From: Opitutales bacterium
Lineage (GTDB): Bacteria; Verrucomicrobiota; Verrucomicrobiia; Opitutales; Opitutaceae
Direction of reading: 5' to 3'
Length of the DNA stretch: 59,363 nucleotides
NCBI GenBank assembly: GCA_018700525.1
Contig: JABITN010000048.1
Span: 1 to 59,363 of the forward strand
Shown in pieces: positions 8,169 to 22,596 of this stretch. A model generated the notes under the pieces. It searched no databases, was not told the origin of the DNA, and was given only the letters and a program-made list of their open reading frames with translations. The position numbers were made by a program, and so were the translations under genes. How positions within the stretch are numbered: the stretch's first letter is position 1; each line of letters begins with the position of its first letter.

Positions 8169-9050
8169 ATGGAATCCACCGATCAAACCAATCCAGCCAG
8201 GCCAGCAATAGACCTAAGAGTCCTCATCATCGAAGACTCAAAAATCGAAGCCACATTCACCGCCAATCTTCTCAATAAAAACGGCTACGCAGTCGTCCAT
8301 GATCGTGTCGAGACCGAAGAAGATATGGTGGCGGCGCTCGAAGAGCACAAGTGGGATATCATCATCTCCGACTACCAAATGCCCGATTTCGACGGTATGA
8401 AGGCTCTCCAAGTTTTCCAACGCTACGAGCTAGATATTCCTTTCATTCTCGTCTCCGGAAAGATTGGCGAAGAAACCGCAGTCGACCTCATGAAAATGGG
8501 TGCCCACGATTATATAATGAAGGGCAATACCGCTCGATTAGTGCCCGCGATAAAAAGCCACCTCCAAGACGCTGCCAATAGACGAGATAATCTCCGCCTT
8601 GAAAAACGTCTCAAAGAAAGCGAAGCCCAATACCGAGGATTTTTCGAGCACGCACACATCGGCATTTTCCGTTGTTCGGAATATGGAGCTTTGCTCGATG
8701 CCAATGGCCGTTTGGCTAATGCATTTGGCTACGCCAACGCCCAATCATTCATGAAGGATGTCGAGTTTCTCCGCCCCGAAATCCACGATTCCAATACACG
8801 TAATGCTCATACCGTTCAACTCATCGAACTCGCCAAAGAAAGCGAGACATGCGAATCCACATTTCACCGTAAGGACGGTTCCATTCTAGAAGTTAAGATC
8901 AACGTTTGGGCAATTCAGGAAGATCCGGAAAAACCAGTCTACCTCGAAGGGGTCATTGAAGACATCACCGAGCAAAAAGCGATGGAGCGCAAGCTTCGCG
9001 AGATTGAAGAACTCCACGAGTCTCTAATCGATCTAACCAGCAATCTATAA
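8169..9050 (+). CDS. Response regulator with REC and PAS domains, no DNA-binding output
   Basis: This 293-aa protein has an N-terminal receiver domain: acidic pocket IIEDS (E22, D23), phosphoacceptor D68 in IIISDYQMPDFDG, and conserved Lys in DYIMKGN near 118. A PAS/PAC domain follows (QYRGFFEHAHIGIFRCSEYG through YLEGVIEDITEQKAMERKL, about residues 155-280), then a short helical end. There is no histidine kinase, GGDEF or helix-turn-helix domain. The gene sits inside a type I secretion operon between the TolC-like and ABC transporter genes and overlaps the ABC gene start by one base (TAATG). This suggests it works with the secretion complex, perhaps as a phosphorylation-controlled protein-binding module (inference). 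No cognate kinase is encoded in the window. Confidence 0.85.
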   Translation: MESTDQTNPARPAIDLRVLIIEDSKIEATFTANLLNKNGYAVVHDRVETEEDMVAALEEHKWDIIISDYQMPDFDGMKALQVFQRYELDIPFILVSGKIGEETAVDLMKMGAHDYIMKGNTARLVPAIKSHLQDAANRRDNLRLEKRLKESEAQYRGFFEHAHIGIFRCSEYGALLDANGRLANAFGYANAQSFMKDVEFLRPEIHDSNTRNAHTVQLIELAKESETCESTFHRKDGSILEVKINVWAIQEDPEKPVYLEGVIEDITEQKAMERKLREIEELHESLIDLTSNL

Positions 9051-11281
9051 TGAGCGCGACGAACAAGACTGAAACAGCGCCACCTCAAGGACCCGCGAAG
9101 AATCGTCTCGCTGGTTCCATTGGTATTGAGAATCCCAAGACGTCCATGCCTTGTGAAACTTCTCGCGTCGACGATCCCTTGCTCGAATGCCTCGTAACGC
9201 TCGGAAAGATACATCATCGGCCCCTTTCGAAAGAGGCATTGATCACTGGCATGCCATTGGTCGAAAATCGCCTAACGCCAAAACTCTTTCTCCGAGTTGC
9301 CGCTAACGAGGGATTCTCTTCGCGTATAGTAAAGCGCTCCCTCGCGAAAATACCCAATCTGGCCCTACCTGCTATTCTCATTCTCACCGACAACCAAGCC
9401 TTGGTTCTCGTGGAGCGGAAAAGCGACGATACTTGCCGCGTTATCCTTCCGGAAACCGGAAACGGTGAAACCACTGTCAAGACCAGCGAGATCGCGAAAG
9501 ATTACTTAGGAGCAGCAATATTCATCAAACCCAAATTCGACTTTGACACGCAGGCCGAATCCAGTTCGGAAAGTATCAACGCCAAAAACTGGTTCTGGGG
9601 AACACTTTGGAAGTATCGTAAAATCTACTTCAACGTAATCCTCGCCGCTGTATTCATCAATATATTCGCCATTGCTGGATCGCTATTCGTGATGAACGTC
9701 TACGATCGCGTTATACCCAACAACGCCACCGATACGCTTTGGGTCCTCGCGACCGGAGTATGCATCGTTTACGTATTCGACTTCCTGCTGAAATCGCTTC
9801 GCGGATTACTCATCGACAAAGCGGGAAAGAACGCGGATGTGCTTATGTCTAGCTTTATTTTCCAACGCGTCATGGGCATCAAGATGCAAAGCAAGCCAAA
9901 CTCATCCGGCAGCTTCGCCAATCAAGTGAAGGGGTATGAAAGCCTGCGCGAATTCTTCACATCCGCTTCTCTAACGACACTCATCGACCTCCCCTTCGTC
10001 TGCCTATTCATTCTTTTCATGGGATACGTCGCCGGATGGGTAGCCCTCATTCCTTGTGCAGCCATCGCCCTCATAATCGGACTCGGCGCAACGATGCATA
10101 TTCCGCTCAAACGAGCTGCTGAGAAAACGCACGGAGCATCCGCTCAGAAACACGCCATTCTCGTCGAAGCGATCAATGGCTTCGAAGCGATTCGCGGGCT
10201 TTCCGCCGCCGGCAGCTTTCAAAAACGAATGGAAGATTCGTTAAGAAAAATGACGAAGAGCGAAGTTTCCTCTCGACGCTATTCCTCCCTAGTATCGAAC
10301 TTTACGGTATTCGTCACTCAGATGGTTTCAGTCGTCATAATCGTAGTGTCCGTCTATCGGATACATGCGGGCGAAATGAGTATGGGAGCCCTAATTGGTT
10401 GTACCATACTAACCGGAAGAGCCATGGCTCCAATCGGCCAAGTCGCCGCCCTACTTTCTCGACTTCAAGGTTCGCTAGTATCGCTCAGTGGACTCAATAA
10501 TCTCATCAAACTTCCCCAAGAACGCGAAGAAGGACGCGACTATATTCGGAAACCGGATTTCGAACCGCGGATTTCGTTCGACGACGTCACTTTCTCATAC
10601 ACGCCCGAAAGCGTTCCCGCGCTCATCAACGCTTCCTTTAAAATCGAACCGGGAGAACGCGTCGCAATTCTGGGCCGCGTCGGGTCGGGTAAAAGCACTC
10701 TACTTCGACTTATCCTGGGATTCTATCCTTCAACCGAAGGCATGATAACGGTCAATAATACTGACACACGCCAAATAGATCCAGCCGACTTGCGCCGAAA
10801 ACTTGGATACATTGGACAAGACAATCTTCTATTCCAAGGATCACTCAAAAGCAACGTCATGATCGGGGCTCCATGGATGGAGGAAGCGGCTATGATAAAG
10901 GCCGCATCCCTTTCCGGGGTCGAGCGTTTCGTTTCAAAACACCCGCTTGGCTATGATCTTCAAGTAGGCGAACGCGGAGAACTCCTGTCAGGCGGCCAGC
11001 GCCAAGCAGTCAATATCGCTCGGGCTCTGCTAAACAAGCCCAGCTTGCTAGTCATGGACGAACCGACGAGCGCTATGGACGCCAATGCTGAACGTGACTT
11101 CATTTCAAATATGGAACGCTACTCCAAAGAAGGAAATCGCACGCTGATACTTTCCACTCACAAACCGTCCATGCTGAAACTAGTCGATCGCATCATCGTT
11201 ATGGATCAAGGTAAAATCGTAGCCGACGGACCGAAAACCGACGTCATGCGTCAACTATCCGGAGGAGGAGGCAGAAACTAA
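9050..11281 (+). CDS. Type I secretion ABC transporter/permease, LapB/LssB type with C39-like domain
   Basis: This 743-aa protein has three parts. Residues ~40-165 form a C39-peptidase-like domain (DPLLECLVTLGKIHHRPLS). It lacks the catalytic Cys motif, as in LapB/HlyB-type transporters that do not cut a leader peptide. A six-helix ABC transmembrane domain spans ~185-450. The nucleotide-binding domain has Walker A GRVGSGKST, signature LLSGGQRQAVNIARAL, Walker B LLVMDEPTS and H-loop LSTHKPS. It should export large RTX-type proteins or adhesins across both membranes with the flanking TolC-like and HlyD-type proteins (family knowledge). Start and stop overlap the neighbouring genes as TAATG on both sides, showing translational coupling. 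Confidence 0.93.
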   Translation: MSATNKTETAPPQGPAKNRLAGSIGIENPKTSMPCETSRVDDPLLECLVTLGKIHHRPLSKEALITGMPLVENRLTPKLFLRVAANEGFSSRIVKRSLAKIPNLALPAILILTDNQALVLVERKSDDTCRVILPETGNGETTVKTSEIAKDYLGAAIFIKPKFDFDTQAESSSESINAKNWFWGTLWKYRKIYFNVILAAVFINIFAIAGSLFVMNVYDRVIPNNATDTLWVLATGVCIVYVFDFLLKSLRGLLIDKAGKNADVLMSSFIFQRVMGIKMQSKPNSSGSFANQVKGYESLREFFTSASLTTLIDLPFVCLFILFMGYVAGWVALIPCAAIALIIGLGATMHIPLKRAAEKTHGASAQKHAILVEAINGFEAIRGLSAAGSFQKRMEDSLRKMTKSEVSSRRYSSLVSNFTVFVTQMVSVVIIVVSVYRIHAGEMSMGALIGCTILTGRAMAPIGQVAALLSRLQGSLVSLSGLNNLIKLPQEREEGRDYIRKPDFEPRISFDDVTFSYTPESVPALINASFKIEPGERVAILGRVGSGKSTLLRLILGFYPSTEGMITVNNTDTRQIDPADLRRKLGYIGQDNLLFQGSLKSNVMIGAPWMEEAAMIKAASLSGVERFVSKHPLGYDLQVGERGELLSGGQRQAVNIARALLNKPSLLVMDEPTSAMDANAERDFISNMERYSKEGNRTLILSTHKPSMLKLVDRIIVMDQGKIVADGPKTDVMRQLSGGGGRN

Positions 11282-12525
11282 TGAGTCAAGAATCGCAACC
11301 CAACTCGCTCCCCAATGGAACACCCAAAGAAAAGGTGCTTTCCGAAGACCTCGACTTTTTCGGGGACTGCAAAACGGCATTTCTCGAAGAGAAAATGCCC
11401 TACGCAAATGTTCTTCTCCTTACGATCGCCGGCATAGTCGTTGCGTTCTTTATCTGGGCTTCCAATTCCAGGGTTAGTGAAATCGCCCGCGGCCAAGGGA
11501 AGGTCATTCCATCGGCAAGCTTGCAAATTATTCAAAGTCTCGAAGGCGGAATCGTTTCGCAAGTCCATGTAGCAGAAGGTCAATTCGTCGAGCAAGGCCA
11601 GCTACTTGTCAAGGTCAACGACATGCACTTTAACGCCGCATACAACGAAAGCCTTTTCGAGAGTAACGATTTACTCGCCAAAATAGCTCGGCTAAATGCC
11701 GAATCAAATGACCTTCCAGAACTCCTCTTTCCTGAAGGATTCAACACAGCGAACTCCGAACTCATCGCTTCCGAAACTCTCCTCTTCAAAACCCGTCGCG
11801 AAAACATCGAAACGCAACAGGAGCGATTGCAAAAAAGCCTAGCCCTAAAAAACAGGGAGCTCTCGATGACTCGTCCGCTCGCCGATTCAGGCGTGGTCTC
11901 CCAAGTCGAACTCCTGCGATTGGAAACCCTAGTCAACGATATTGAAGGCCAACTCGAACGGGAATGGTCTGACTACAAAAGCGAAGTCGTATCTCAAAAT
12001 AACGAATACAAAACTCGCCATAAGCAAATCGAAGAAACCCTTCTAGCCTACAAAGACAAAATATATCGCACATCAATCACTGCTCCGATTTCCGGCTTCG
12101 TAAACAAAGTTCATATCAAAACGCTCGGCGGCGTTCTGCAACCGGGAGCCCCCATTATCGAAATCGTTCCAAACGAGGACAGCTTGCTCGTCCAAGCAGA
12201 TATTAGCCCTTCCGATATCGCCTTTATAAGCCTTCAACAAGAAGCGACCGTTAAATTAACTGCCTACGATTTTTCGATCTACGGCGGACTCAATGGGACG
12301 GTCGAGCACATCAGTGCCGACACTTTCCTCAACGAAAAAGGAGAGAGCTTCTACAAAATCCTCGTTCGAACAGGCGATCGATCATTACAGACATCAGGCC
12401 AGGAACTTAAGATTATACCAGGTATGGTCGCCCAGGTAGATATCAAAACTGGAAAAAAGAGCGTTCTCGATTACGTATTGAAGCCATTGATGCGGGCCAA
12501 AATGAACGCATTTACCGAACGCTAA
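11281..12525 (+). CDS. HlyD-family periplasmic adaptor (type I secretion membrane fusion protein)
   Basis: The 414-aa product has a cytoplasmic N-terminus and one transmembrane helix (NVLLLTIAGIVVAFFIWAS, about residues 41-59). A lipoyl/barrel-sandwich half-motif follows (SLEGGIVSQVHVAEGQFVEQG), then a long coiled-coil hairpin (about 115-255), the second lipoyl half (TAPISGFVNKVHIKTLGGVLQPG) and a C-terminal beta domain ending in a helix. This is the HlyD/LapC/PrsE layout: the inner-membrane adaptor joining the ABC transporter to the TolC-like channel. It is the last gene of the + strand operon and overlaps the ABC gene by TAATG. Its end faces the end of the convergent VWA operon, 133 bases away. 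Confidence 0.93.
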   Translation: MSQESQPNSLPNGTPKEKVLSEDLDFFGDCKTAFLEEKMPYANVLLLTIAGIVVAFFIWASNSRVSEIARGQGKVIPSASLQIIQSLEGGIVSQVHVAEGQFVEQGQLLVKVNDMHFNAAYNESLFESNDLLAKIARLNAESNDLPELLFPEGFNTANSELIASETLLFKTRRENIETQQERLQKSLALKNRELSMTRPLADSGVVSQVELLRLETLVNDIEGQLEREWSDYKSEVVSQNNEYKTRHKQIEETLLAYKDKIYRTSITAPISGFVNKVHIKTLGGVLQPGAPIIEIVPNEDSLLVQADISPSDIAFISLQQEATVKLTAYDFSIYGGLNGTVEHISADTFLNEKGESFYKILVRTGDRSLQTSGQELKIIPGMVAQVDIKTGKKSVLDYVLKPLMRAKMNAFTER

Positions 12526-12658: not shown

Positions 12659-13777
12659 TTACGGTCCGTAAATGCCTCCACGTCTTCCGGGGCCGTAAAT
12701 GATGGATGGTACCCTCGGCTCTCTGCGCGGAATCGGCGCCGGATAGCGCTCGTCGATCTCTCTCGATCTCGCCTTCAAACTCTCACGCTCCAAAGCAACG
12801 AAAGCGCCTCCATGCTCATAGGTCAGCTCGCGCATGAGATTGGCAAACTTCAAACCGGATTGGCTAAGAGACAAAGTGCTGCGAATCAAATTCGGAAATC
12901 CAATTGCGTTGATCAAAGTCAGACGCTCGCCATCTTTTCCTTTATTCAATTTGTCCAACGTATTGAGAACCGGTTCCGACTTGCCGGTAAATTCATCTCC
13001 GAACACATAAATCCCCATTTTCATCTCTTCGTCATTCGGTTTCGCTAAGCGGCGAATCGCTTGAGCGATTCCCGGAACCGGATTACTCTCGCTGTCGTAA
13101 GGATAGAGGCGAAGCGTTCGTACCATATAGTCCCGCGTCTGCTTATCGTCTTTCATCCATGAATTCCCCATACCGCGACCGACGATAAACCGCCCATTCG
13201 CATCGAGTAACTGGATCCCTTTCACCTCCGGATATGAATCCAAGGCTTCCTCGAATTTCTGAATCACGTAGCCCCAGACCAACCGAGTATTCGGATCGCG
13301 CATACTACCAGAAGTATCTATCACAAATGCGATATGATTGCTTTCGACAGAAACGCCGACCGGCGTATTTTCCTCCGGTTTTTGTTCGATTTCAGGATCA
13401 GTCTGCCGAGCTGCTAATTCGTTTTCGAGATCCTCGATATCCGTAACGAACTTGTCTTTACTGAATTCCTTGTCGTTTATCTGTTCCTTTAGCTTCGCGA
13501 TTATCGCGTCCAGATCTTCTTCTACGATTTTCTTATCCTTTATCTTCGATTCTTCCATCAGGATGAATGTAGATATCTCGTCAGTGACAATTTCATACTC
13601 GTTGAGCTGAAGCATTCGTTGCTGAATAATTCGCTCCAAGGCGATCCGAAGATTGGTCACCTCTTTAGTCTTCTTGCCCATCGTTATTACGAAAAGAAGA
13701 ATTATTGCCCCGAAACCGCAGCAAATCACATCCAAAAAGGATAGGCTAAATACCTCTGTCGCCCGTTTGCGCTTCAT
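12659..13777 (-). CDS. Membrane-anchored VWA-domain protein with ExbD/MotB-like N-terminus, intact MIDAS
   Basis: The protein (372 aa) begins with a basic cytoplasmic stub. A single membrane helix carrying an acidic residue near its start (FSLSFLDVICCGFGAIILLF) follows, then a coiled coil (about residues 35-125) and a von Willebrand A domain. The MIDAS motif is intact: VIDTSGSM near residue 156. The membrane segment with its Asp resembles the ion-path helix of ExbD/TolR/MotB, partners of the MotA/ExbB-like protein encoded in the same operon (inference). The C-terminus is Pro/Gly/Arg-rich (YGPGRRGG). I chose the ATG at 13777 because it overlaps the upstream gene's stop as ATGA and makes the N-terminus match that of the neighbouring paralogue; a TTG 12 bases earlier is less likely. 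Confidence 0.82.
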   Translation of the reverse strand: MKRKRATEVFSLSFLDVICCGFGAIILLFVITMGKKTKEVTNLRIALERIIQQRMLQLNEYEIVTDEISTFILMEESKIKDKKIVEEDLDAIIAKLKEQINDKEFSKDKFVTDIEDLENELAARQTDPEIEQKPEENTPVGVSVESNHIAFVIDTSGSMRDPNTRLVWGYVIQKFEEALDSYPEVKGIQLLDANGRFIVGRGMGNSWMKDDKQTRDYMVRTLRLYPYDSESNPVPGIAQAIRRLAKPNDEEMKMGIYVFGDEFTGKSEPVLNTLDKLNKGKDGERLTLINAIGFPNLIRSTLSLSQSGLKFANLMRELTYEHGGAFVALERESLKARSREIDERYPAPIPRREPRVPSIIYGPGRRGGIYGP

Positions 13778-14838
13778 GTATTCGGCCAAGTTTTAGAGGG
13801 GCATACCATCGCTCCGCCTTGATCGTCAGCCAAACGCCAAAAGTGAACTGCAGCGCCTGGGTCGTTTTTCATTGGATACAGGAGTACATTAACAGGCGCC
13901 TGGACAGTGAGGGCTTTCTTGGCCACTCGAAACATATTTATACGATCATGATCATCGACCACACTCGAAGTCGTATAGCTATCGGCTAGTGTCGGCAGGC
14001 CATCGACGATCAAGACGATTCTATCGGGTTCGATTGGCAAATCGCTCACCATACTAAACGCTTTTTCCAAATTCGCGCCCTTTCTCGGTACCACTTCTTC
14101 GATTAGACCAAGCACTTCTTTTGTAACACCACTATCCGATGGGTCCATCCAATCGACTCCATAACTTGTTTGCAATTGATCGATCTCATCGTTAAATGTA
14201 ATCACCTTGTAACGTGACGTAGACTTCAAGTTTGCGATCAACCATCTCATCCCCTTTTTGACCCGCATCCACTTGGGTGATTCCCGCTTCTCGTCATCGG
14301 TATCGTTAAGCCGTTCAGATGCCGTCTCCGGCGAATCGTCCATCATCCCCCCGGACGCTTCGATTAGAAAAACCACGTTGTCTCCTTGAATATCGAAACC
14401 CGTCAAATACTGACGGCGGATTGGATTGAGTATAGGAATCGGCGGTTCCTCCTCCTGCTTCGGCATGTTTTCCTTATCGTCTATCAACTTCCCCAAGTCC
14501 TCTTCCATTGACGATAATTGGGCGAGGAGCAGAGCGAACTCATCTTCCAATTCGGTCTGCATTTTGACTTTCTCGATAACCTCCTCCTCGGCGCTACGAC
14601 TACGTTCGCGTATCGAGGAAAGGGAGCGCTGAAGGTCCTTTAACTCTTGATCCTTCAGAGAAATATCATTCTCCATCTGCCCGATCACTTGCTCGATCTT
14701 CGCCTTAATATCGATCAGCGTATCCGACTTCTTACCCACGGTTAACACGAAAAGCAGCAAAACTGCTCCAAAACCGCAACAGATGCAGTCAAGAAATGAC
14801 AGACTGAAAATTTGAGTTTCGCGTTTCCTTCGTTTCAT
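13774..14838 (-). CDS. Membrane-anchored VWA-like protein, paralogue with degenerate MIDAS
   Basis: This 354-aa protein shares its N-terminus with the next gene (MKRRKRETQIFSLSFLDCICC, then GFGAVLLLF), so the pair looks like a tandem duplication. After one membrane helix comes a long coiled coil (about residues 40-120), then a VWA-like fold. The metal-site motif reads LIEASGGM where DxSxS is expected, so D and the second S are replaced and metal binding may be lost. A VWA core is still suggested by YKVITFNDEI and DRIVLIVDGLPT. It overlaps the following gene by ATGA and is 21 bases downstream of the actin-fold gene. A heteromeric pair with one metal-binding and one degenerate VWA subunit is a plausible reading (inference). 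Confidence 0.78.
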   Translation of the reverse strand: MKRRKRETQIFSLSFLDCICCGFGAVLLLFVLTVGKKSDTLIDIKAKIEQVIGQMENDISLKDQELKDLQRSLSSIRERSRSAEEEVIEKVKMQTELEDEFALLLAQLSSMEEDLGKLIDDKENMPKQEEEPPIPILNPIRRQYLTGFDIQGDNVVFLIEASGGMMDDSPETASERLNDTDDEKRESPKWMRVKKGMRWLIANLKSTSRYKVITFNDEIDQLQTSYGVDWMDPSDSGVTKEVLGLIEEVVPRKGANLEKAFSMVSDLPIEPDRIVLIVDGLPTLADSYTTSSVVDDHDRINMFRVAKKALTVQAPVNVLLYPMKNDPGAAVHFWRLADDQGGAMVCPSKTWPNT

Positions 14839-14859: not shown

Positions 14860-16329
14860 CTACTCGATACAATGAACAAGCAAGAGTCGTTTTCGCGTTC
14901 CTTGTATCAAGATTTCAATGGCATCACCAGCCTTCAAGCTAGCATCGGATTGCATTTCCAGGCTGGAGCCTTCCATCGCCTCGATCATCCAACGATCATC
15001 AACAGAGTTTAATGCAAATAGTGCTTGAGGCGATCCAGCAGTCCCTCGATCAGCAACCAAATCAAAACCATCGCTTTCGCCAACGCCCACCAAAAAGGAT
15101 TTCCCCTCTAAACGATACCCCAATCCGTCGCACACCATATGCGTTGGGTTCAGCGATCGGTCTTCTCTAATAATTCGTATCGATGCAATATTCGGAGTTC
15201 TTCCGACGATTTCACTCTCGGGAATTGCGGCCATCGAGATGCCCACTTCCACCCGCATTTCTTCTACGTCGTTTACGACGCCCCAGTCTTTGCCGTAGTT
15301 CGCCGCTCCAAAAGCCGCGCTCTCCGTAGGCAATTCCTTAACCATACCCACGCCTTGAGAGACGATCGATTCTTTCAACCCTTGGATTGCCGCAGCTCTT
15401 CCGGACAACGCTATCTGTATCGCCTGGTCCCCGTTTGCGAAATCATTAACCGCTCTTAAAACCAACTGCGTGAGCTGTTTCACCTGCGGTCCCAACTCGA
15501 ATGCAGCCAACTCTTTGGAGATCACCATTTGACGAGACTTTTCACGCGTGGACACTTCGATATTCGCCACGCTCTGACGACCAAAGCTGAATAAGGCTTC
15601 CCGTGCCTGAGCGTTAAATGCTCGCTCAATCTGGCGATCCTCATTGATATCGAACGATGTCTCGACCAAAAACTTATTCGACATCGATGTCGTAAATCGC
15701 TCCAGCATTTTGCTAAATCCGTGTTGCGTCAATCGAGCAAAGTAAACCCGTTCTAGACCAGATCGCTTATGGAAAACAGTGATATGAGTCGCGTGGGCCA
15801 GGAGATCCACATGAAAAATCCGTTCACCTTCGGGCACATTCCAAAGTCCTTCGCTGTACAATGAAGCCGCAGCCATATCGACAATCCCAGCGACCGGGAT
15901 TCCGATATCGGCCAAAATACTCAAAAGCAGCCCCAAGTGCTCTTCCGACTTTTCATTAACCTCCAAGTAGTGACCCGGAACGGCAATAATCGCTCGATCG
16001 ATTTCTCCAACCTCTTTTTCGATACGCGTAGCCAAAACTTGGAAATACTCGTAAGCCAATTGCGAGTACATGGTCTTACTGTAGTGCCCATCGAAATTAG
16101 TAGACTGAAAGGACAATTCATCCAGGAACTCGCTACATGTACGACCCGGATATACGAAGTTCATTTCCTGGGCTTCAGAGCCAAACCAAAGTTCTCCTGA
16201 TCGAGCATACGCGCAGGCCGGAAATGAATTCGCCTCCTCGCCTAAAGACAGCGTGCGTGAAGAGCCGTCATCCATAATTAGAACAGCATTTACGCCAACG
16301 TCGCTAAGTTCAATTCCGAGTGTCGCCAT
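14860..16329 (-). CDS. Actin/Hsp70-fold protein with FHA-like C-terminal domain
   Basis: The 489-aa product has the outline of an Hsp70/actin-fold ATPase. It opens with a phosphate-1-like strand-turn (TLGIELSDVGVNAVLI). The segment DRAIIAVPGHY and the helix-strand region GIPVAGIVDMAAASLYSEG follow, then a phosphate-2-like strand HVDLLAHATHITVF and an adenosine-like motif IALSGRAAAIQGL. The phosphate-2 loop lacks the usual DxGxGT and the adenosine motif lacks GG, so ATP hydrolysis is doubtful. The last ~100 residues (LEGKSFLVGVGESDGFDLV ... LKAGDAIEIL) look like an FHA-type beta sandwich. It is probably cytoplasmic. It lies between the MotA/ExbB-like gene (25-base gap) and the VWA pair, so it may be the cytoplasmic controller of that membrane complex (inference). 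Confidence 0.65.
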   Translation of the reverse strand: MATLGIELSDVGVNAVLIMDDGSSRTLSLGEEANSFPACAYARSGELWFGSEAQEMNFVYPGRTCSEFLDELSFQSTNFDGHYSKTMYSQLAYEYFQVLATRIEKEVGEIDRAIIAVPGHYLEVNEKSEEHLGLLLSILADIGIPVAGIVDMAAASLYSEGLWNVPEGERIFHVDLLAHATHITVFHKRSGLERVYFARLTQHGFSKMLERFTTSMSNKFLVETSFDINEDRQIERAFNAQAREALFSFGRQSVANIEVSTREKSRQMVISKELAAFELGPQVKQLTQLVLRAVNDFANGDQAIQIALSGRAAAIQGLKESIVSQGVGMVKELPTESAAFGAANYGKDWGVVNDVEEMRVEVGISMAAIPESEIVGRTPNIASIRIIREDRSLNPTHMVCDGLGYRLEGKSFLVGVGESDGFDLVADRGTAGSPQALFALNSVDDRWMIEAMEGSSLEMQSDASLKAGDAIEILIQGTRKRLLLVHCIE

Positions 16330-16354: not shown

Positions 16355-17179
16355 TTAGAGAGAAGGTTTCTTCATCAGCCCAATAACTTTCTTAGTCGCG
16401 GTATCTTGCAGATCGATAATCAACGATTCCTGCTTAGACTGCAAAAGGTGGACCATCAACATAAGTACGATACTCAACATCAATGCCACAAACGTAGAGT
16501 TAAACGCCAATCCCAGATTTGAAGTAACCCCGCTAATATCGCCTTGAATCGCCTTATCCGCTTGCTCCAACGCCTCCCCAATACCGCGAACCGTACCGAT
16601 AAAACCCACAGAAGGTATTGCCCAAGCGATATAACGTACCAGCGATAAATCCGATTCCAATTGCTCGTAAGCCATTTCAGCTCTTTCGCTCACGGCATGG
16701 GCTGCGTCCTGAATCGACCGAGTGGCATCAAATCGATGTAACGCCGCCATTATCACATCCGGCAAAATCTTGTCACGAAGCCGCGGCATTCGCCTCAATT
16801 GACTCTCAACCTCCTTATAGTGCCCCAATGCGTCCTCCGGAATGATCCGCTCCCCTCGAGAAATCTTCAAGAAAGCGTGCTCTGCCATCGACTGCTCTCC
16901 GCTTAATTTAACGAATTTGAAGGCAATAATAATCGTAGCCCATATCATCAAAATCAGACAGGCTTCTTGCTCAACGTTCTTCAGTAGAACCACAATCGAT
17001 CGCTCTGGAACAAAATCCCCGTCGGGATGCTGACTAGCCCGAATGGCATTCGTCATTTTAATATCTTCCGAAACCGGCAATATGTAGGTCTGGTAGACCG
17101 TCACAACTACGGCTACGGAAACCAATAAACCAACTACCTGGATAATGAAATCTCGAGAGAGAAACCCTTTGCTCTTCAT
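16355..17179 (-). CDS. MotA/TolQ/ExbB-family proton-channel protein
   Basis: This 274-aa inner-membrane protein has an N-terminal membrane helix (FIIQVVGLLVSVAVVVTVY) and a second helix near 75-92. A cytoplasmic helical domain separates these from the family signature in the last two helices: AIPSVGFIGTVRGIGEAL and SNLGLAFNSTFVALMLSIVLML. This is the conserved MotA/TolQ/ExbB core that forms the pentameric stator around an ExbD/MotB-type dimer and uses ion flow (family knowledge). No exbD, tolR or motB gene lies nearby. The two VWA proteins with Asp-bearing N-terminal helices in the same operon are the best partner candidates. It is first in its operon and divergent from the lipoprotein genes. 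Not flagellar, as no flagellar genes are present. Confidence 0.85.
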   Translation of the reverse strand: MKSKGFLSRDFIIQVVGLLVSVAVVVTVYQTYILPVSEDIKMTNAIRASQHPDGDFVPERSIVVLLKNVEQEACLILMIWATIIIAFKFVKLSGEQSMAEHAFLKISRGERIIPEDALGHYKEVESQLRRMPRLRDKILPDVIMAALHRFDATRSIQDAAHAVSERAEMAYEQLESDLSLVRYIAWAIPSVGFIGTVRGIGEALEQADKAIQGDISGVTSNLGLAFNSTFVALMLSIVLMLMVHLLQSKQESLIIDLQDTATKKVIGLMKKPSL

Positions 17180-17404
17180 ATTCTACAATCGCCTGAGGCG
17201 TATTAAACCAATTTCAACAAGTTACGCAATCTGACGCATTTAATCCAGCATTCGTTACGTTAATCTCTACGGAGAGCGATCGCTCACGGATTCACTGAAA
17301 ATTACTGCAACAAAGCGGATTTACAAATGTCAGGAAAAAGTCTACCTTCGCCGACATAACAACGAATCCAAATCAACCCGCGATTGCGTAGTTACTTACT
17401 AAAA

Positions 17405-17992
17405 ATGAATCGGTCGAAAATTCTTGGAAAAACCATCATCGCCCTCGTTAGCCTCTTCCTGATGACAATACAATGGGGATGCGCAGGGCCAGCAGCCTCT
17501 AAAACCGTCAAAGGAGCCGGAACCGGAGCCGCCGTTGGAGCCATTGGAGGCGCGATAACCGGCCAGGATACAGGAGGCATTGTTGCTGCTGGAGCAGCCG
17601 GAGCTATCGTGGGTGCTACAATTGGAGCGATCCAAGAGGGCAAGGAGCGTAAACGCCAGGACACTCTAGCCCAACAGCGGGCCTACAATCAGGCGATTGC
17701 CATGCAGAAACGGGCGATCGACAAGGAAAAGGCCACTTTACAGGAAGAATTGGACATAGCCGAGGGCTTTAGAATTTCCGACGAAGAGCTCGACGAAATG
17801 GCCGGAAGAGCCGAAACCGCCGAAGGGCGGCTCAAAGTTTTACAGGCCAAACGTCAAGCGGCCATCGATCGCAAGAACGCTCTAGAGGAGGCGGAAGAGC
17901 GGGAACGCGACGCATTGGCGGAAATCGAACGCCTCGAAAAAGAACTGGCCGAACTTGAGGGGACCGGTAACGGAGATGGCACAAGCCCCTAA
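17405..17992 (+). CDS. Glycine-zipper lipoprotein with C-terminal coiled coil
   Basis: The 195-aa product starts with a signal peptide ending at a lipobox-like QWGC (Cys about residue 25; the -3 position is atypical). A glycine-zipper membrane hairpin follows (GAGTGAAVGAIGGAITG and IVAAGAAGAIVGATIGAI), then a highly charged coiled-coil tail (about residues 90-185). This is the layout of YMGG/OmpA-like glycine-zipper outer-membrane lipoproteins. I chose the ATG at 17405 over a TTG at 17384 because it gives a normal signal peptide. It is divergent from the MotA/ExbB-like operon and 26 bases upstream of a second lipoprotein gene. It may connect the inner-membrane complex with the outer membrane (inference from context). 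Confidence 0.75.
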   Translation: MNRSKILGKTIIALVSLFLMTIQWGCAGPAASKTVKGAGTGAAVGAIGGAITGQDTGGIVAAGAAGAIVGATIGAIQEGKERKRQDTLAQQRAYNQAIAMQKRAIDKEKATLQEELDIAEGFRISDEELDEMAGRAETAEGRLKVLQAKRQAAIDRKNALEEAEERERDALAEIERLEKELAELEGTGNGDGTSP

Positions 17993-18018: not shown

Positions 18019-18822
18019 ATGAATCACCTCCATCGCATAATCTTTTACGTATTTGGAGCAGCCTGTGCACTGCTGTTTTGGGGATGTAACACCACCTATG
18101 AGATGGAGGTCGACGCCATACAGAACCCAACTATTCAAGACGCCGATTCCTACGTCATCGTTCCACGAGATCCTGAACAAGACGTAAACGACCTACGTTA
18201 TAAGGAGACGGTCAGCTACATTAAAACCGCTCTGTCAGGAAAAGGCATGTACGAAGCCATTGACGCCCAAGAAGCAGACATGGTTATAGAAATCGACTAC
18301 GGTATGGAACCCCCGCGTCGAGAAATGAAAGTTGTCGAAGAACCTGTTTTCGCGACTATCCAAGAACCCGACACCTACCAAACAGTCAGCCAACAAGACC
18401 CTAAAACTGGCCGAGTTGTAACCTACACGGTACGCATACCCGGCAGGCGTTCGCGAGAGTTGATTGGCTATCAAGAACGTCTGGTTGCGGTTATCATAAA
18501 CGAAAAATACATGGAGCTAACTGCCAAGGAAAACATGCTCGATGCCGTTTCCAGCGATGTTCCAGCCCAAGAAATTTGGAGTGTACGCGTACGCAACTAC
18601 GACGAAAACGACGATCTGCGTGAATACCTCCCCATTATGGCTGCTTCCGTCGCTGACTACGTGGGTGAAGACACCGGTACCAATCAAAAGGTAAGGCTCA
18701 AAAATAACGACGAAGTCGTGGAATTCATCAAACGCGGAATAATAGCAGATCGTCCTCTCGATTCCAAAATTCCCACCGAATCGATCAGCGAAAACCAGTT
18801 GGGCGAAGATACAAGCATCTAA
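18019..18822 (+). CDS. Lipoprotein with DUF4136-like fold
   Basis: This 267-aa protein has a lipoprotein signal (ALLFWGC, Cys about residue 23). The central part, with ADSYVIVPRDPEQDVNDLRY, an IKTALSGKGMYEAID helix and the strand ADMVIEIDYGM, resembles the DUF4136 pattern: a 'string plus conserved strand' domain found in outer-membrane lipoproteins. A middle insert (EPDTYQTVSQQDPKTGRVVTYTV) and a C-terminal tail complete it. Function unknown. It follows the glycine-zipper lipoprotein with a 26-base gap and is probably co-transcribed. Its stop is only 8 bases from the end of the convergent dcw operon. The domain assignment is by overall pattern only. Confidence 0.65.
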   Translation: MNHLHRIIFYVFGAACALLFWGCNTTYEMEVDAIQNPTIQDADSYVIVPRDPEQDVNDLRYKETVSYIKTALSGKGMYEAIDAQEADMVIEIDYGMEPPRREMKVVEEPVFATIQEPDTYQTVSQQDPKTGRVVTYTVRIPGRRSRELIGYQERLVAVIINEKYMELTAKENMLDAVSSDVPAQEIWSVRVRNYDENDDLREYLPIMAASVADYVGEDTGTNQKVRLKNNDEVVEFIKRGIIADRPLDSKIPTESISENQLGEDTSI

Positions 18823-18830
18823 GTAAATCG

Positions 18831-19199
18831 CTACTTCTGTTCAGATGGCTTTCCGAGACCATAGCGTACAATCAATCGAAACGTTTCTCTCAAACCATCG
18901 GCACGGTTCCCCTCCGCCAAACTCGCTTCAGCTATTTCGAACGCTATTCGAAATTGCTCGAACAGGGTTCGATAAGCAAAAAACAGCCCGTATTTAGGAT
19001 CGTAAATGTTGGCCGACTCTGAGGTTAGTCCATTGAGCTCGATAATCCGAATATTGCGACCAGCCATCAAATCCACTTCCGACGGAACCCGAATGTCGTA
19101 TCTCCCGAAGTGAAAGCCCTTCACTCCCCGACTCATCGCATCGATCGCCTCTTCTAGCTCGGGCGTCATCAAAGACTCCGAATACGTGCGCCCAATCAA
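18831..19199 (-). CDS. Short ATP-grasp-like C-terminal fragment at the end of the dcw operon
   Basis: This 122-aa frame starts at a TTG overlapping the ftsZ stop (TTGA). Its core, GFHFGRYDIRVPSEVDLMAG followed by IRIIELNGLTSESANIYDPK, matches the C-terminal end of ATP-grasp carboxylate-amine-ligase-like proteins, where ELNG/DP residues contribute to the metal site. The nucleotide-binding lobes normally found before it (several hundred residues) are absent. A stop codon lies four codons before the TTG and ftsZ occupies the DNA upstream. It is therefore either a remnant left after a deletion fused to ftsZ, or a shortened domain kept for another role. The frame has intact coding character with no internal stop. 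Confidence 0.55.
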   Translation of the reverse strand: MIGRTYSESLMTPELEEAIDAMSRGVKGFHFGRYDIRVPSEVDLMAGRNIRIIELNGLTSESANIYDPKYGLFFAYRTLFEQFRIAFEIAEASLAEGNRADGLRETFRLIVRYGLGKPSEQK

Positions 19200-20428
19200 A
19201 TAGGAATCCTTACTCCACGCCGCAAAAAGGTAGGAGTATCCAGGTCTTGGCCTTCGAACATCGTACCCTCCGTATTCTCGAACTCGCCCCTCGGCTCTCC
19301 TTCGCTAAATGAAAATTCGTGCTGCTCCGTCTTCTGGCTCTTATCGTGGGTTTTCTTCGATTTTCTGGACTTTTTTTCCGGGATTTCAGCGGAATCCGGC
19401 TCTACTAAATTCGCCGAAGGAATTTTCTTCATCCGCCTTCTGCCTCTAAATATCGTAACATCGCTGCTACCACTTGTGCCGATCACGCAGATCTCAACTC
19501 GATGGCCCATCGACTCATCGATCACCGCTCCCATGACGACGTTCGCATCCTTTCCGAATGCGTCGGCAATGCTGTCCATAATACGCTGAGTCTCACTGAT
19601 CCCAAGACTGGTCCCACCAATCAGATTCACTAGCAATTGATCAGCCTTCTTCGAAAACTCCGGAGTATGCAACAATGGGCACAATTTCAGATCCGCAATC
19701 GCAGCATTCGTCGCATCTTCGCCCGTTCCTTCTCCGAGTCCGAACAAGGTCTTGCTTGAACGATTTGCAAACACCTGCTGCAACTGCGAGAAATCTAGGT
19801 TAATCAAACCCGTCTTATTCATCATCGACCAAATCGACTTGATCGCTTTTTCAACCCAAGCATCCGCTTGCGAAAATGCCTCGAGCAAAGACGCATCCGG
19901 TTCGCTTTCCTGAATCAATAAATCGTTCGGCAGAGGTATGACCGCATTCGCAACTTCCCGTAGTTTATCGAGACCGACTTTCGCTGCGTTCGACCGCGCT
20001 GCTCGTTCGATCGTGAAGGGGAGCGTTACGAAAACGATGACCGTCGCTCCTTTTTGAGCGGCAATATCCGCTAGAACTGGGGTAACACCTGTACCAGTAC
20101 CGCCTCCAAGTCCCGCAGTCAGAAACAGCAGATCGACATCTTTAACCATTTCCTCAAGCAATTGCTTGTCGGCCAATGCAGCTTCTCGTCCCACATCGGC
20201 ATCGCCGCCTGCTCCGAGCCCGTGCGTAACCGTCTTTCCGATACAATGCTTATCCATTACCGGAGAGTTGGATAATGCCTGCTGATCCGTATTGATTGCC
20301 GTCAAATGAAGATCCGAAGGATTGGAAAGCATCAATCGATCGACGATATTGGATCCAGCTCCACCGACTCCGATGACTTTCATTCGGATGGGCTTAATTT
20401 CGCTAGAACCTTCGTTTAGTTCGCTCAT
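19196..20428 (-). CDS. ftsZ: Cell division protein FtsZ, with altered T7 loop
   Basis: The 410-aa tubulin-like GTPase polymerises at mid-cell to form the division ring. It has VIGVGGAGSNIVDRL (about residues 18-32), the tubulin signature GGGTGTG (108-114), the NTD motif and TLPFTIE. The variable linker contains charged and Lys/Ser-rich stretches (about 335-390). The C-terminal peptide LDTPTFLRRGVRIPI is the FtsA/ZipA-type tail. The T7 (synergy) loop reads NLDFSQL (210-216). The first Asp is kept, but the second catalytic Asp of NxDxxD is Gln215. The gene lies 19 bases downstream of ftsA. Its stop overlaps the TTG of a short ATP-grasp-like fragment. Confidence 0.95.
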   Translation of the reverse strand: MSELNEGSSEIKPIRMKVIGVGGAGSNIVDRLMLSNPSDLHLTAINTDQQALSNSPVMDKHCIGKTVTHGLGAGGDADVGREAALADKQLLEEMVKDVDLLFLTAGLGGGTGTGVTPVLADIAAQKGATVIVFVTLPFTIERAARSNAAKVGLDKLREVANAVIPLPNDLLIQESEPDASLLEAFSQADAWVEKAIKSIWSMMNKTGLINLDFSQLQQVFANRSSKTLFGLGEGTGEDATNAAIADLKLCPLLHTPEFSKKADQLLVNLIGGTSLGISETQRIMDSIADAFGKDANVVMGAVIDESMGHRVEICVIGTSGSSDVTIFRGRRRMKKIPSANLVEPDSAEIPEKKSRKSKKTHDKSQKTEQHEFSFSEGEPRGEFENTEGTMFEGQDLDTPTFLRRGVRIPI

Positions 20429-20447
20429 ATCTTTTCGGTATTCAAAG

Positions 20448-21653
20448 CTACTGAAACAAACCCTTCAGCTTTCGCAACAGACCCGGAGCCTTGTTCTCGC
20501 TCGGCCCGAGTTTACTTTGATACTGCAATCCGTATTTCAAAAGACCCAAAGCCACGCTGTACTGGGATTCACGTAATTCGCCTGTCGCCATCGTTCCGTT
20601 ATCACCGACTCGCGCAGGAGCTCCAAAAACCCCTTCCGCGCATTGCTCGCAATTTCGCAAATTAGCGCCGCCGCCGCAAAGAATAACTCCGCCGCCCAAT
20701 CGCTCCGAGCGCCCGAGAGCTCCAAGTTTCTTGCTTATCACTTCGAAGATTTCAGTCATACGAAGTTCGATTATTTTTTCGATGCTCCATAACCGTATTG
20801 GGCGGTCGCCAATCTCGAAATCATTGTTTAACCAAACTTTTTCTCCTTTGTTCTTATGTTCGACGATCGCTGAACCATAGCGATGTTTTAAACTCTCGGC
20901 CTGATTCAAACGCATACGTAACCCAATACTCAAATCGTTAGAAATATGGTCGCCGCCCAAAGGGAAACTACCCGCTACCACGCAACGCCCGCTTTGATAC
21001 GCAGCGTAGTCCGTCGAGCCGCGTCCGATATCGATAACCAAACAACCGTTCTGTTTCTCCTCCTCCGAAGCGACCACGGATCCCGCGGCGACCGCAGATA
21101 GTATCACATCGTCTACGTGCAAGTTGAACCCGTTGATGATATGGATCGCATCGCCAATCTTTCGAGCATTTCCGTGAACGGTCCAGTAACTAGCTTCGAG
21201 GTGTTCGCCCTCTAGATTCAATGGCTTTTCAACCGAGCGATTATCCAATCTATAAGGCCGACGTAGGTGATGAATAACCACTCGTTCCTCCGGTAGATCA
21301 CGTCCCTTCGCTAAGCTTGAAACCTGCTCAATATCCTCTTTGGAAACACGTCCGTCCTCTGAAGTGACATTAACCGATGCCTCGCTCGGAAATCCGTTAA
21401 CGTCGCTGCCGCTTAACGCAAGGTAAACCCCATCTATCTTAACGCCCGCTTGATCCTCTGCCGACAAAATTGCCGCGTGGGCGCAATCGCTTGCTGCGTG
21501 AAAATCCACGATGTCACCCTTGAGCACGCCTTTCGAAGAGCTCTGGCCCATGCCAATGATATTCAAACTTTGGCCTTCTACGATCTCACCCAGTAAGACC
21601 ACAACCTTACTGGTTCCTATTTCGATTCCTGCTATGACTTTAGAACTATACAC
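20448..21653 (-). CDS. ftsA: Cell division protein FtsA (actin-like membrane anchor)
   Basis: The 401-aa actin-fold ATPase tethers FtsZ to the membrane. It begins with the phosphate-1 loop IAGIEIGTSKVVVLLGE, has an SHS2/1C subdomain (IIGMGQSSSKGVLKGDIVD through VYLALSGSDV), the phosphate-2 motif LVIDIGRGSTDYA and the adenosine motif VILCGGGANL. It ends in a short amphipathic membrane-binding helix (PGLLRKLKGLFQ). The order ftsQ-ftsA-ftsZ is the classic dcw end. The sequence is clearly divergent from proteobacterial FtsA, as expected for Verrucomicrobiota. Confidence 0.92.
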   Translation of the reverse strand: MYSSKVIAGIEIGTSKVVVLLGEIVEGQSLNIIGMGQSSSKGVLKGDIVDFHAASDCAHAAILSAEDQAGVKIDGVYLALSGSDVNGFPSEASVNVTSEDGRVSKEDIEQVSSLAKGRDLPEERVVIHHLRRPYRLDNRSVEKPLNLEGEHLEASYWTVHGNARKIGDAIHIINGFNLHVDDVILSAVAAGSVVASEEEKQNGCLVIDIGRGSTDYAAYQSGRCVVAGSFPLGGDHISNDLSIGLRMRLNQAESLKHRYGSAIVEHKNKGEKVWLNNDFEIGDRPIRLWSIEKIIELRMTEIFEVISKKLGALGRSERLGGGVILCGGGANLRNCEQCAEGVFGAPARVGDNGTMATGELRESQYSVALGLLKYGLQYQSKLGPSENKAPGLLRKLKGLFQ

Positions 21654-21693
21654 GTGTCCTTTTCGATTCGTATTTCGGTCCGGTAAAAACTCT

Positions 21694-22596
21694 CTATTGC
21701 AAAAACGAAGCGCGCGTCACCGGCACCTGCGAATTTAAAGTCAGATCCACTCGAACAACCTTATTAACCGACCGACTTTTGTTGTAGTCGATAATATAAT
21801 CCAACTCAGCTAATTGACGGCGATAGCCGTTCGGATTCGGCTCGAAAACGGCCTCCCTAGCAAAGTCGCTTTTCACCACGATATTCGGCCAAGCTTCAAA
21901 AGATACAACTTTCCATGAACTGTAAAGATGCGGCGCAAGCGTTCTGGCTTCGCTCAACAATTCCTCCAGAATATCCATTCCTGCGATCGATTTGAATCCG
22001 CCATCTTTACGCTTCAAGCGAATACCATCCAACGAAGGCAATGAACGCACCTGCTTTGGATCGTAACCAATTCCTTCGTAAATCACGCCCTCATCGTCAG
22101 CCAACAATGTGATACGGCCGCGACCGACATCCGACGCTATAATCTTAGCGATCGGCTCGCGCTCTTCAATCGAAACGAACAATGTATCCGGAAGCAGACG
22201 TACCAATTCCGCTTTCCGAATTTGCGTATAGCTTTCCAAACTCCGCTTCATTTCGCCCAAGTCGAGAGTCAGTAGATTCAACCCATCCCGGTTCAGGTCC
22301 AAGTGATACAATATCCACTCGCGACTCAAAACGTCACTCTCAGTTTCAACAGTCTTTAACGGCAGCGCTCGGCCCGCTTTAGTCAATGCATTCGAAACAT
22401 CTTCCGTCTCAAGAAATAACTTCGCTCCTCCAGCGACTACGACAATTGCGACGATTACGATAACCGATTTTCGGCATCGAGCGAAAATCATCCGCTTGAA
22501 TGCCGTGGAACTCATGCTTTTCGCCCGAACGTCTTGATCGATGTCTTTCCAGGATTTGGATTTGAGAGCGGTCTTCGTTGCTTTTTTAGTGGCCAT
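21694..22596 (-). CDS. ftsQ: Cell division protein FtsQ/DivIB
   Basis: The 300-aa bitopic protein has a Lys-rich cytoplasmic N-terminus, one membrane helix (SVIVIVAIVVVAGGAKLFL, about residues 44-62) and a POTRA-type domain starting near LNLLTLDLGEMKRSLESY (about 108-125). The typical strand ELVRLLPDTLFVSIEERE and an FtsQ C-terminal beta domain follow. FtsQ scaffolds FtsB/FtsL and FtsW/FtsI in the divisome (family knowledge). Sequence similarity to model FtsQ proteins is low, so the call rests on topology, the POTRA pattern and the position between ddl and ftsA. Confidence 0.88.
   Translation of the reverse strand: MATKKATKTALKSKSWKDIDQDVRAKSMSSTAFKRMIFARCRKSVIVIVAIVVVAGGAKLFLETEDVSNALTKAGRALPLKTVETESDVLSREWILYHLDLNRDGLNLLTLDLGEMKRSLESYTQIRKAELVRLLPDTLFVSIEEREPIAKIIASDVGRGRITLLADDEGVIYEGIGYDPKQVRSLPSLDGIRLKRKDGGFKSIAGMDILEELLSEARTLAPHLYSSWKVVSFEAWPNIVVKSDFAREAVFEPNPNGYRRQLAELDYIIDYNKSRSVNKVVRVDLTLNSQVPVTRASFLQ

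Follow-up and report, generated by a model that had tools for sequence, protein, structure and literature searches.

Two paired VWA proteins as the probable axle of a TolQ/ExbB-type ion-driven motor in an Opitutales bacterium

The window analysed here is a stretch of 59,363 nucleotides that makes up a whole contig of an Opitutales bacterium (GCA_018700525.1, JABITN010000048.1). Its minus strand carries an operon with the gene order TolQ/ExbB-type, Hsp70-like, VWA1 and VWA2. The first gene (16355-17179, minus strand) encodes a protein of 274 amino acids with long predicted helices at residues 9-50, 69-100, 156-205 and 216-264. This candidate ring subunit passed the Pfam family MotA_ExbB (PF01618) with 58.3 bits against a cut-off of 22.9, and its AlphaFold2 (AF2) model reached a mean pLDDT of 93. 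Foldseek searches with the model returned TolQ and ExbB structures as the top PDB rows (probability 1.00, TM 0.55/0.66 for rank 1, best E-value 1.7e-3), with no PDB row at E<=0.001. By sequence, no clear PDB chain was detected either with the ring protein alone (TolQ at E 0.78) or with the profile of its family at E<=0.01, and the fold assignment is therefore based on the AF2 model and the Pfam match. Both agree with the preliminary description of this DNA, which had placed a MotA/ExbB-type gene in the VWA operon.

Two threonines of the ring subunit are candidates for a pore ring. Thr196 (motif GTVRG, codon at 16592-16594, minus strand) and Thr229 (AFNST, codon at 16493-16495, minus strand) were invariant in the 42 rows of the ring-family alignment. 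When the ring protein was aligned by profile with the ordinary ExbB proteins of the window genome (E 1.2e-7), Thr196 fell on the threonine of their GTV motif and Thr229 on the second threonine of ALxTT. We take these threonines to form the pore ring of ExbB and TolQ.

VWA1 (13774-14838, minus strand) starts with MKRRKRETQIFSLSFLDCICCGFGAVLLLFVLTVGKK and combines a basic stub, a helix with Asp17, a probable coiled coil and a VWA domain with a degenerate MIDAS (EASGG). VWA2 (12659-13777, minus strand) starts with MKRKRATEVFSLSFLDVICCGFGAIILLFVITMGKK and comprises a basic stub, a helix with Asp16, a long predicted helix and a VWA domain with an intact DTSGS motif. The motif FSLSFLDxICCGFGAxxLLF after the basic stub is common to both. 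At the positions of Asp17 (codon 14788-14790, minus strand) and Asp16 (codon 13730-13732, minus strand), the VWA1 and VWA2 alignments hold an aspartate in 43 of 43 and 45 of 45 rows, respectively. The ATG of VWA2 at 13777 overlaps the VWA1 stop codon as ATGA; we therefore delimit VWA2 to 12659-13777, and the listed start (TTG, 13789) is probably wrong. The two proteins share 34% identity over their residues 3-169 and are paralogues. Both reading frames lie on the minus strand where they had initially been placed, and both products begin with the basic stub and the single helix that had been ascribed to them; this helix is hydrophobic and has its Asp close to the N-terminal end.

AlphaFold2 models VWA2 (mean pLDDT 77) with a single helix over residues 14-124, which puts Asp16 in or near the predicted first turn; the exact start of the helix is uncertain because pLDDT falls below 50 at residues 6-16, Asp16 included. 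C-terminal to this helix, the modelled residues 145-334 matched the VWA domain of 4fx5 (Z 17.3, rmsd 2.6, 167 aligned residues). The Pfam family VWA_2 was matched at E<=0.01 by 37 of the 43 VWA1 homologues, the window VWA1 itself being without a match, and 18 of the 45 VWA2 homologues matched it as well. Within the DxSxS MIDAS of VWA2, D, S and S were kept in all 45 homologues. The MIDAS of VWA1 is variable (D in 35 of 43 homologues, final S in 40 of 43) and reads E-A-S-G-G in the window, with neither the D nor the final S. The VWA domains had been described as metal-binding, which fits VWA2 but not the VWA1 of the window.

The second gene of the operon (14860-16329, minus strand) encodes an Hsp70/actin-like protein of 489 amino acids. 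Its family profile matched Hsp70 structures (best E 1.8e-7); the window protein alone matched no family over a cut-off, and Hsp70 was found only through the family profile. A C-terminal FHA domain was present in 6 of 33 members of this family. Two divergent proteins with lipobox-like N-termini, recognized by eye, are encoded on the plus strand beyond the ring gene: a glycine-zipper protein (17384-17992; YiaD-like Gly-zipper model at E 1e-8, below cut-off) and a DUF4136-like protein (18019-18822; DUF4136 at E 1.7e-4, below cut-off). Both recur in the window's clade, the former at 12 loci, always upstream and on the opposite strand, the latter with 16 members at 13 loci.

A protein search of 387 genomes of the window's phylum gave matches in 27, and 23 of the 387 encode the VWA-pair family. 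The weak matches in the other four (G082, G267, G356 and G380) were unrelated VWA proteins without the motif and were left out of all counts. All 23 family-bearing genomes have two VWA genes; these are near neighbours in every case but G157, which has them on separate contigs. In this sample, collected by homology, the Asp was present in 46 of 46 readable N-termini (23 VWA1 and 23 VWA2). For the class to which G400 belongs (Gammaproteobacteria; G400 is the genome of locus L103), a profile search covered 369 genomes and gave matches in 32 at E<=1e-10. Gammaproteobacterial loci were then read with a pattern that fixes the flanking residues and leaves the Asp position free: all 53 helices from 30 loci had the Asp, with 7 of these loci yielding a single helix rather than a pair. 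Homologues without the Asp, which the preliminary description had named as counter-evidence, were thus looked for and not found among these 46 and 53 helices. At such frequencies (23/387 and 32/369) the family is not rare; our literature search found no function assigned to it. The contig G400:C1 carries one VWA1 gene near the ring gene and two more VWA-family genes elsewhere, as if these were interchangeable second axle subunits.

We also scanned species genomes with a DNA pattern of the helix motif, which gave at least 119 matches; the 80 loci listed from these were analysed. Among the matches listed, 78 of 80 loci belong to the VWA-pair family, and these loci span Gammaproteobacteria, Alphaproteobacteria, deltaproteobacterial groups and Verrucomicrobia. 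On viral contigs the same pattern gave four matches, none of them from the VWA-pair family. The helix motif is not a product of chance. Since the scan pattern contains the Asp, the motif-scan loci are no evidence for its conservation. Among the matches listed, 24 of 194 VWA-family ORFs are without the scan pattern; 13 of these keep the Asp in a different residue context, two (L123 and L149) have it when read further, five are truncated at a contig end or by a masked stretch, and four are unrelated.

Gene linkage was analysed at 104 loci, namely 23 from the phylum sample, 80 from the motif scan (among the matches listed) and the window. The counts that follow hold among the matches listed. VWA genes were present at 102 of the 104 loci, and at 78 of these 102 the cognate ExbB gene lies upstream on the same strand. 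Another 19 have less than 3 kb of flank, including L099, where ExbB lies downstream, and the cognate ExbB is absent from five (L054, L063, L072, L084 and L149). Seven genomes were searched for it, four behind the five ExbB-less loci and three with short flanks (L094, L103 and L110), and all seven encode it (E 1e-86 or better). Both VWA genes are present at 87 of the 102 loci, several of them with the 4-base VWA1/VWA2 overlap seen in the window. These locus counts contain likely duplicates: the contigs of L063 and L084 have the same length (177,196), as do those of L059 and L151 (58,081), and the first two loci are apparently a single place.

With an ExbD HMM built from 25 sequences, no match was found at E up to 10 in the 102 VWA loci among the matches listed; the only match in the locus set, again among the matches listed, was at L064, an unrelated VWA locus. 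The window genome has eight ExbD genes and flagellar MotAB, all on other contigs. The earlier statement that no ordinary ExbD or MotB is present therefore holds for the operon and the whole contig (C75, identical with the window), but not for the genome.

Several other genes accompany the family. Of the 78 loci whose ExbB gene lies upstream (among the matches listed), 60 gave an Hsp70-like match within the same locus, irrespective of its position relative to the other genes. Neighbour families were formed as single-linkage clusters, with Pfam run on seven representatives. Among the matches listed, they comprise a PEGA/FGE-sulfatase-like protein at 43 loci and a TPR protein at 33, which lie upstream on the same strand at 42 and 26 of them, respectively, two proteins encoded downstream whose N-termini look lipobox-like by eye (28 and 24 loci) and an M48 peptidase (22 loci). 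The TPR neighbour of L146 carries a kinase domain, that of L116 none. Three operon neighbours (L049:4379-5671, L113:3394-4563 and L045:11449-12612) resemble one another in the N-terminal part and have long low-complexity tails rich in Asp, Gly, Ser and Gln.

The Asp of the VWA helix had been likened to the ion-path residue near the cytoplasmic end of the single helix of ExbD and MotB, and its distances to the flanking charges bear this out. The median distance from the preceding charge to the Asp was 10 residues in VWA1 (n=85), 8 in VWA2 (n=85), 8 in ExbD (n=25) and 5 in MotB (n=5), and from the Asp to the next charge it was 18, 17, 17 and 18, respectively. Judged from these sequences, the Asp geometry matches that of ExbD, and that of MotB on the far side, a likeness of position and not of function. 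In local hhalign comparisons, the VWA helix scored 9.7 and 9.4 against ExbD and MotB, below all 10 control families with an N-terminal TM helix (10.0-19.5). As the positive control, ExbD against MotB, reached 15.3 and itself fell below one control, this test cannot decide on kinship. Profile searches of the PDB with the VWA families found no ExbD or MotB, and neither was among the best 25 of 38 and the best 25 of 41 Pfam families matched by the 43 VWA1 and 45 VWA2 members. A profile search against ExbD and MotB, proposed at the outset, thus detected no kinship, at low power and with a positive control that barely works. The CCGFGA that follows the Asp occurred in none of the ExbD and MotB sequences compared.

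Motor proteins of this kind were described in 2025 as 'TPH-vWA', with a TolQ-like partner, in Mol Biol Evol (PMC12204202). In that report, the tolQ-like gene stands without tolR/exbD, and the vWA proteins have one transpore helix with a conserved Asp and occur in heterologous pairs in Proteobacteria and Verrucomicrobia; AF3 models put the Asp within the ring of Thr residues of the partner pentamer. The window shares with this account the syntenic TolQ-like gene, the lack of a syntenic tolR/exbD, the Asp helix, the paired vWA genes and the threonines of the partner, and no tested feature contradicts the match, which was made on the features described in PMC12204202. The reading as a VWA-headed axle is already proposed in print, and the window is one more example. 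Neither Hsp70 nor heat shock is mentioned in the main text of PMC12204202. Our additions are the Hsp70-like gene, in some cases with FHA, the recurrent PEGA, TPR, lipoprotein-like and protease neighbours, the degenerate MIDAS of the window VWA1 and VWA2 genes away from the operon.

Among the better-known systems, ExbBD/TolQR resembles the operon in the modelled fold of the ring protein, in the pore threonines and in the distance of the Asp from both helix ends, as in ExbD. The window differs from ExbBD/TolQR in that a VWA head and a predicted helical stalk of ~90 residues replace the periplasmic domain of ExbD/TolR, the axle proteins are of two kinds, and the helix contains CCGFGA. MotAB/PomAB has a comparable single helix with an ion-path Asp and a periplasmic extension, but no MotB match was obtained and the ring model ranks TolQ/ExbB above PomA/MotA. 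ZorAB of Zorya defence likewise includes a MotA/ExbB-type protein, and the ring protein gave weak ZorA matches (best E 4.3e-6, PADLOC). We rejected Zorya after scanning the four operon proteins with PADLOC: of the Zorya models only those for ZorA matched, and only the ring protein; no ZorB, ZorC or ZorD was found, and the other matches were low-scoring.

We consider it very likely that VWA1 and VWA2 form, with the TolQ/ExbB-like ring, an ion-driven motor of the 5:2 type whose axle is made of the VWA helices, a relative of the motors that serve flagella and nutrient uptake. The stator unit envisaged in the preliminary description is supported by the linkage, by the lack of ExbD at the loci, by the Asp geometry, by the pore threonines of the partner and by the published AF3 models (PMC12204202). 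The observation itself is real, and the motor reading is well supported. In such a motor, the TolQ/ExbB-like protein (16355-17179) would form the channel ring as a pentamer, and the single helices of VWA1 and VWA2 would form a dimeric, presumably heterodimeric, axle with one Asp each toward the ring threonines. Ions passing the Asp residues would make ring and axle rotate against one another, and the stalk of long helices would transmit this motion into the periplasm to the two VWA heads, which would replace the peptidoglycan-binding domain of ExbD, TolR and MotB. The Hsp70-like, sometimes FHA-bearing protein may regulate the motor from the cytoplasm, and the VWA heads may engage envelope partners, for example the neighbouring lipoprotein-like proteins. 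This would broaden the kinds of work ascribed to 5:2 ion motors, the outer part being a VWA protein-binding head and not a peptidoglycan clamp.

The composition of the axle allows a variant within the motor reading, in which VWA1 and VWA2 build separate homodimeric axles and one ring protein serves two alternative motors. VWA2-like genes that stand alone at L063 (the other contig of G157) and at L072 would fit such an arrangement, as would the two VWA-family genes that G400 has away from its VWA1-ExbB locus. However, the two genes stay together at most VWA loci among the matches listed, several with 4-base overlaps, and the published family (PMC12204202) occurs mostly in heterologous pairs; we regard separate homodimers as rather unlikely. 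It is improbable that there is no motor at all and that the VWA pair is a membrane-anchored scaffold whose buried Asp merely locks the helices together. No functional data on the VWA-pair family are known to us and the profile searches gave no kinship to ExbD/MotB, both of which would suit a scaffold; against it stand a partner that keeps both channel threonines, the close co-occurrence of the VWA genes with the ring gene and an Asp placed like that of ExbD/MotB. Similarly improbable is that the VWA proteins transduce force in the manner of TolA/TonB, with their helix docked outside a motor that has an ordinary ExbD axle: a first vWA family of such a kind, beside tolQ and tolR-like genes, is described in PMC12204202 and eight ExbD genes exist elsewhere in the window genome, but PMC12204202 keeps the two vWA families separate, and none of the 102 VWA loci among the matches listed has ExbD. 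The motor-binding His that PMC12204202 gives for the TolA/TonB-like family is also missing: 90 VWA1 and 91 VWA2 sequences have no His between Asp-5 and Asp+16, whereas the Asp never varies.

For the motor with a VWA axle, the Hsp70-like/FHA gene and the neighbour genes suggest phospho-regulation and an action on outer-membrane lipoproteins. A more specific version, which we put forward tentatively and hold to be somewhat doubtful, is an obligate VWA1/VWA2 heterodimer switched by cytoplasmic phospho-signalling (the FHA-Hsp70-like protein with PEGA/FGE and TPR proteins, at least one of them a kinase-TPR), with the VWA heads pulling or twisting neighbouring outer-membrane lipoproteins. If true, such a phospho-switched motor with a heterodimeric axle would be a trans-envelope machine that is regulated and differs from Ton, Tol and flagella.

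Further genes were observed around the operon and its relatives. Convergent with the VWA operon lie two plus-strand genes (9050-12525) that presumably encode a type I secretion ABC permease/ATPase and a HlyD-type adaptor; the relatives L042-L044 have the same neighbours. Just beyond the divergent lipoprotein-like genes, the minus strand carries what we take to be ftsZ, ftsA and an ftsQ-like gene (19196-22596), and L041 and L042 likewise have ftsZ and ftsA homologues close to their VWA operon. Beside the solitary VWA2 gene of L063, two tandem genes (L063:7527-10040) have closely similar starts after exported-protein-like N-termini.
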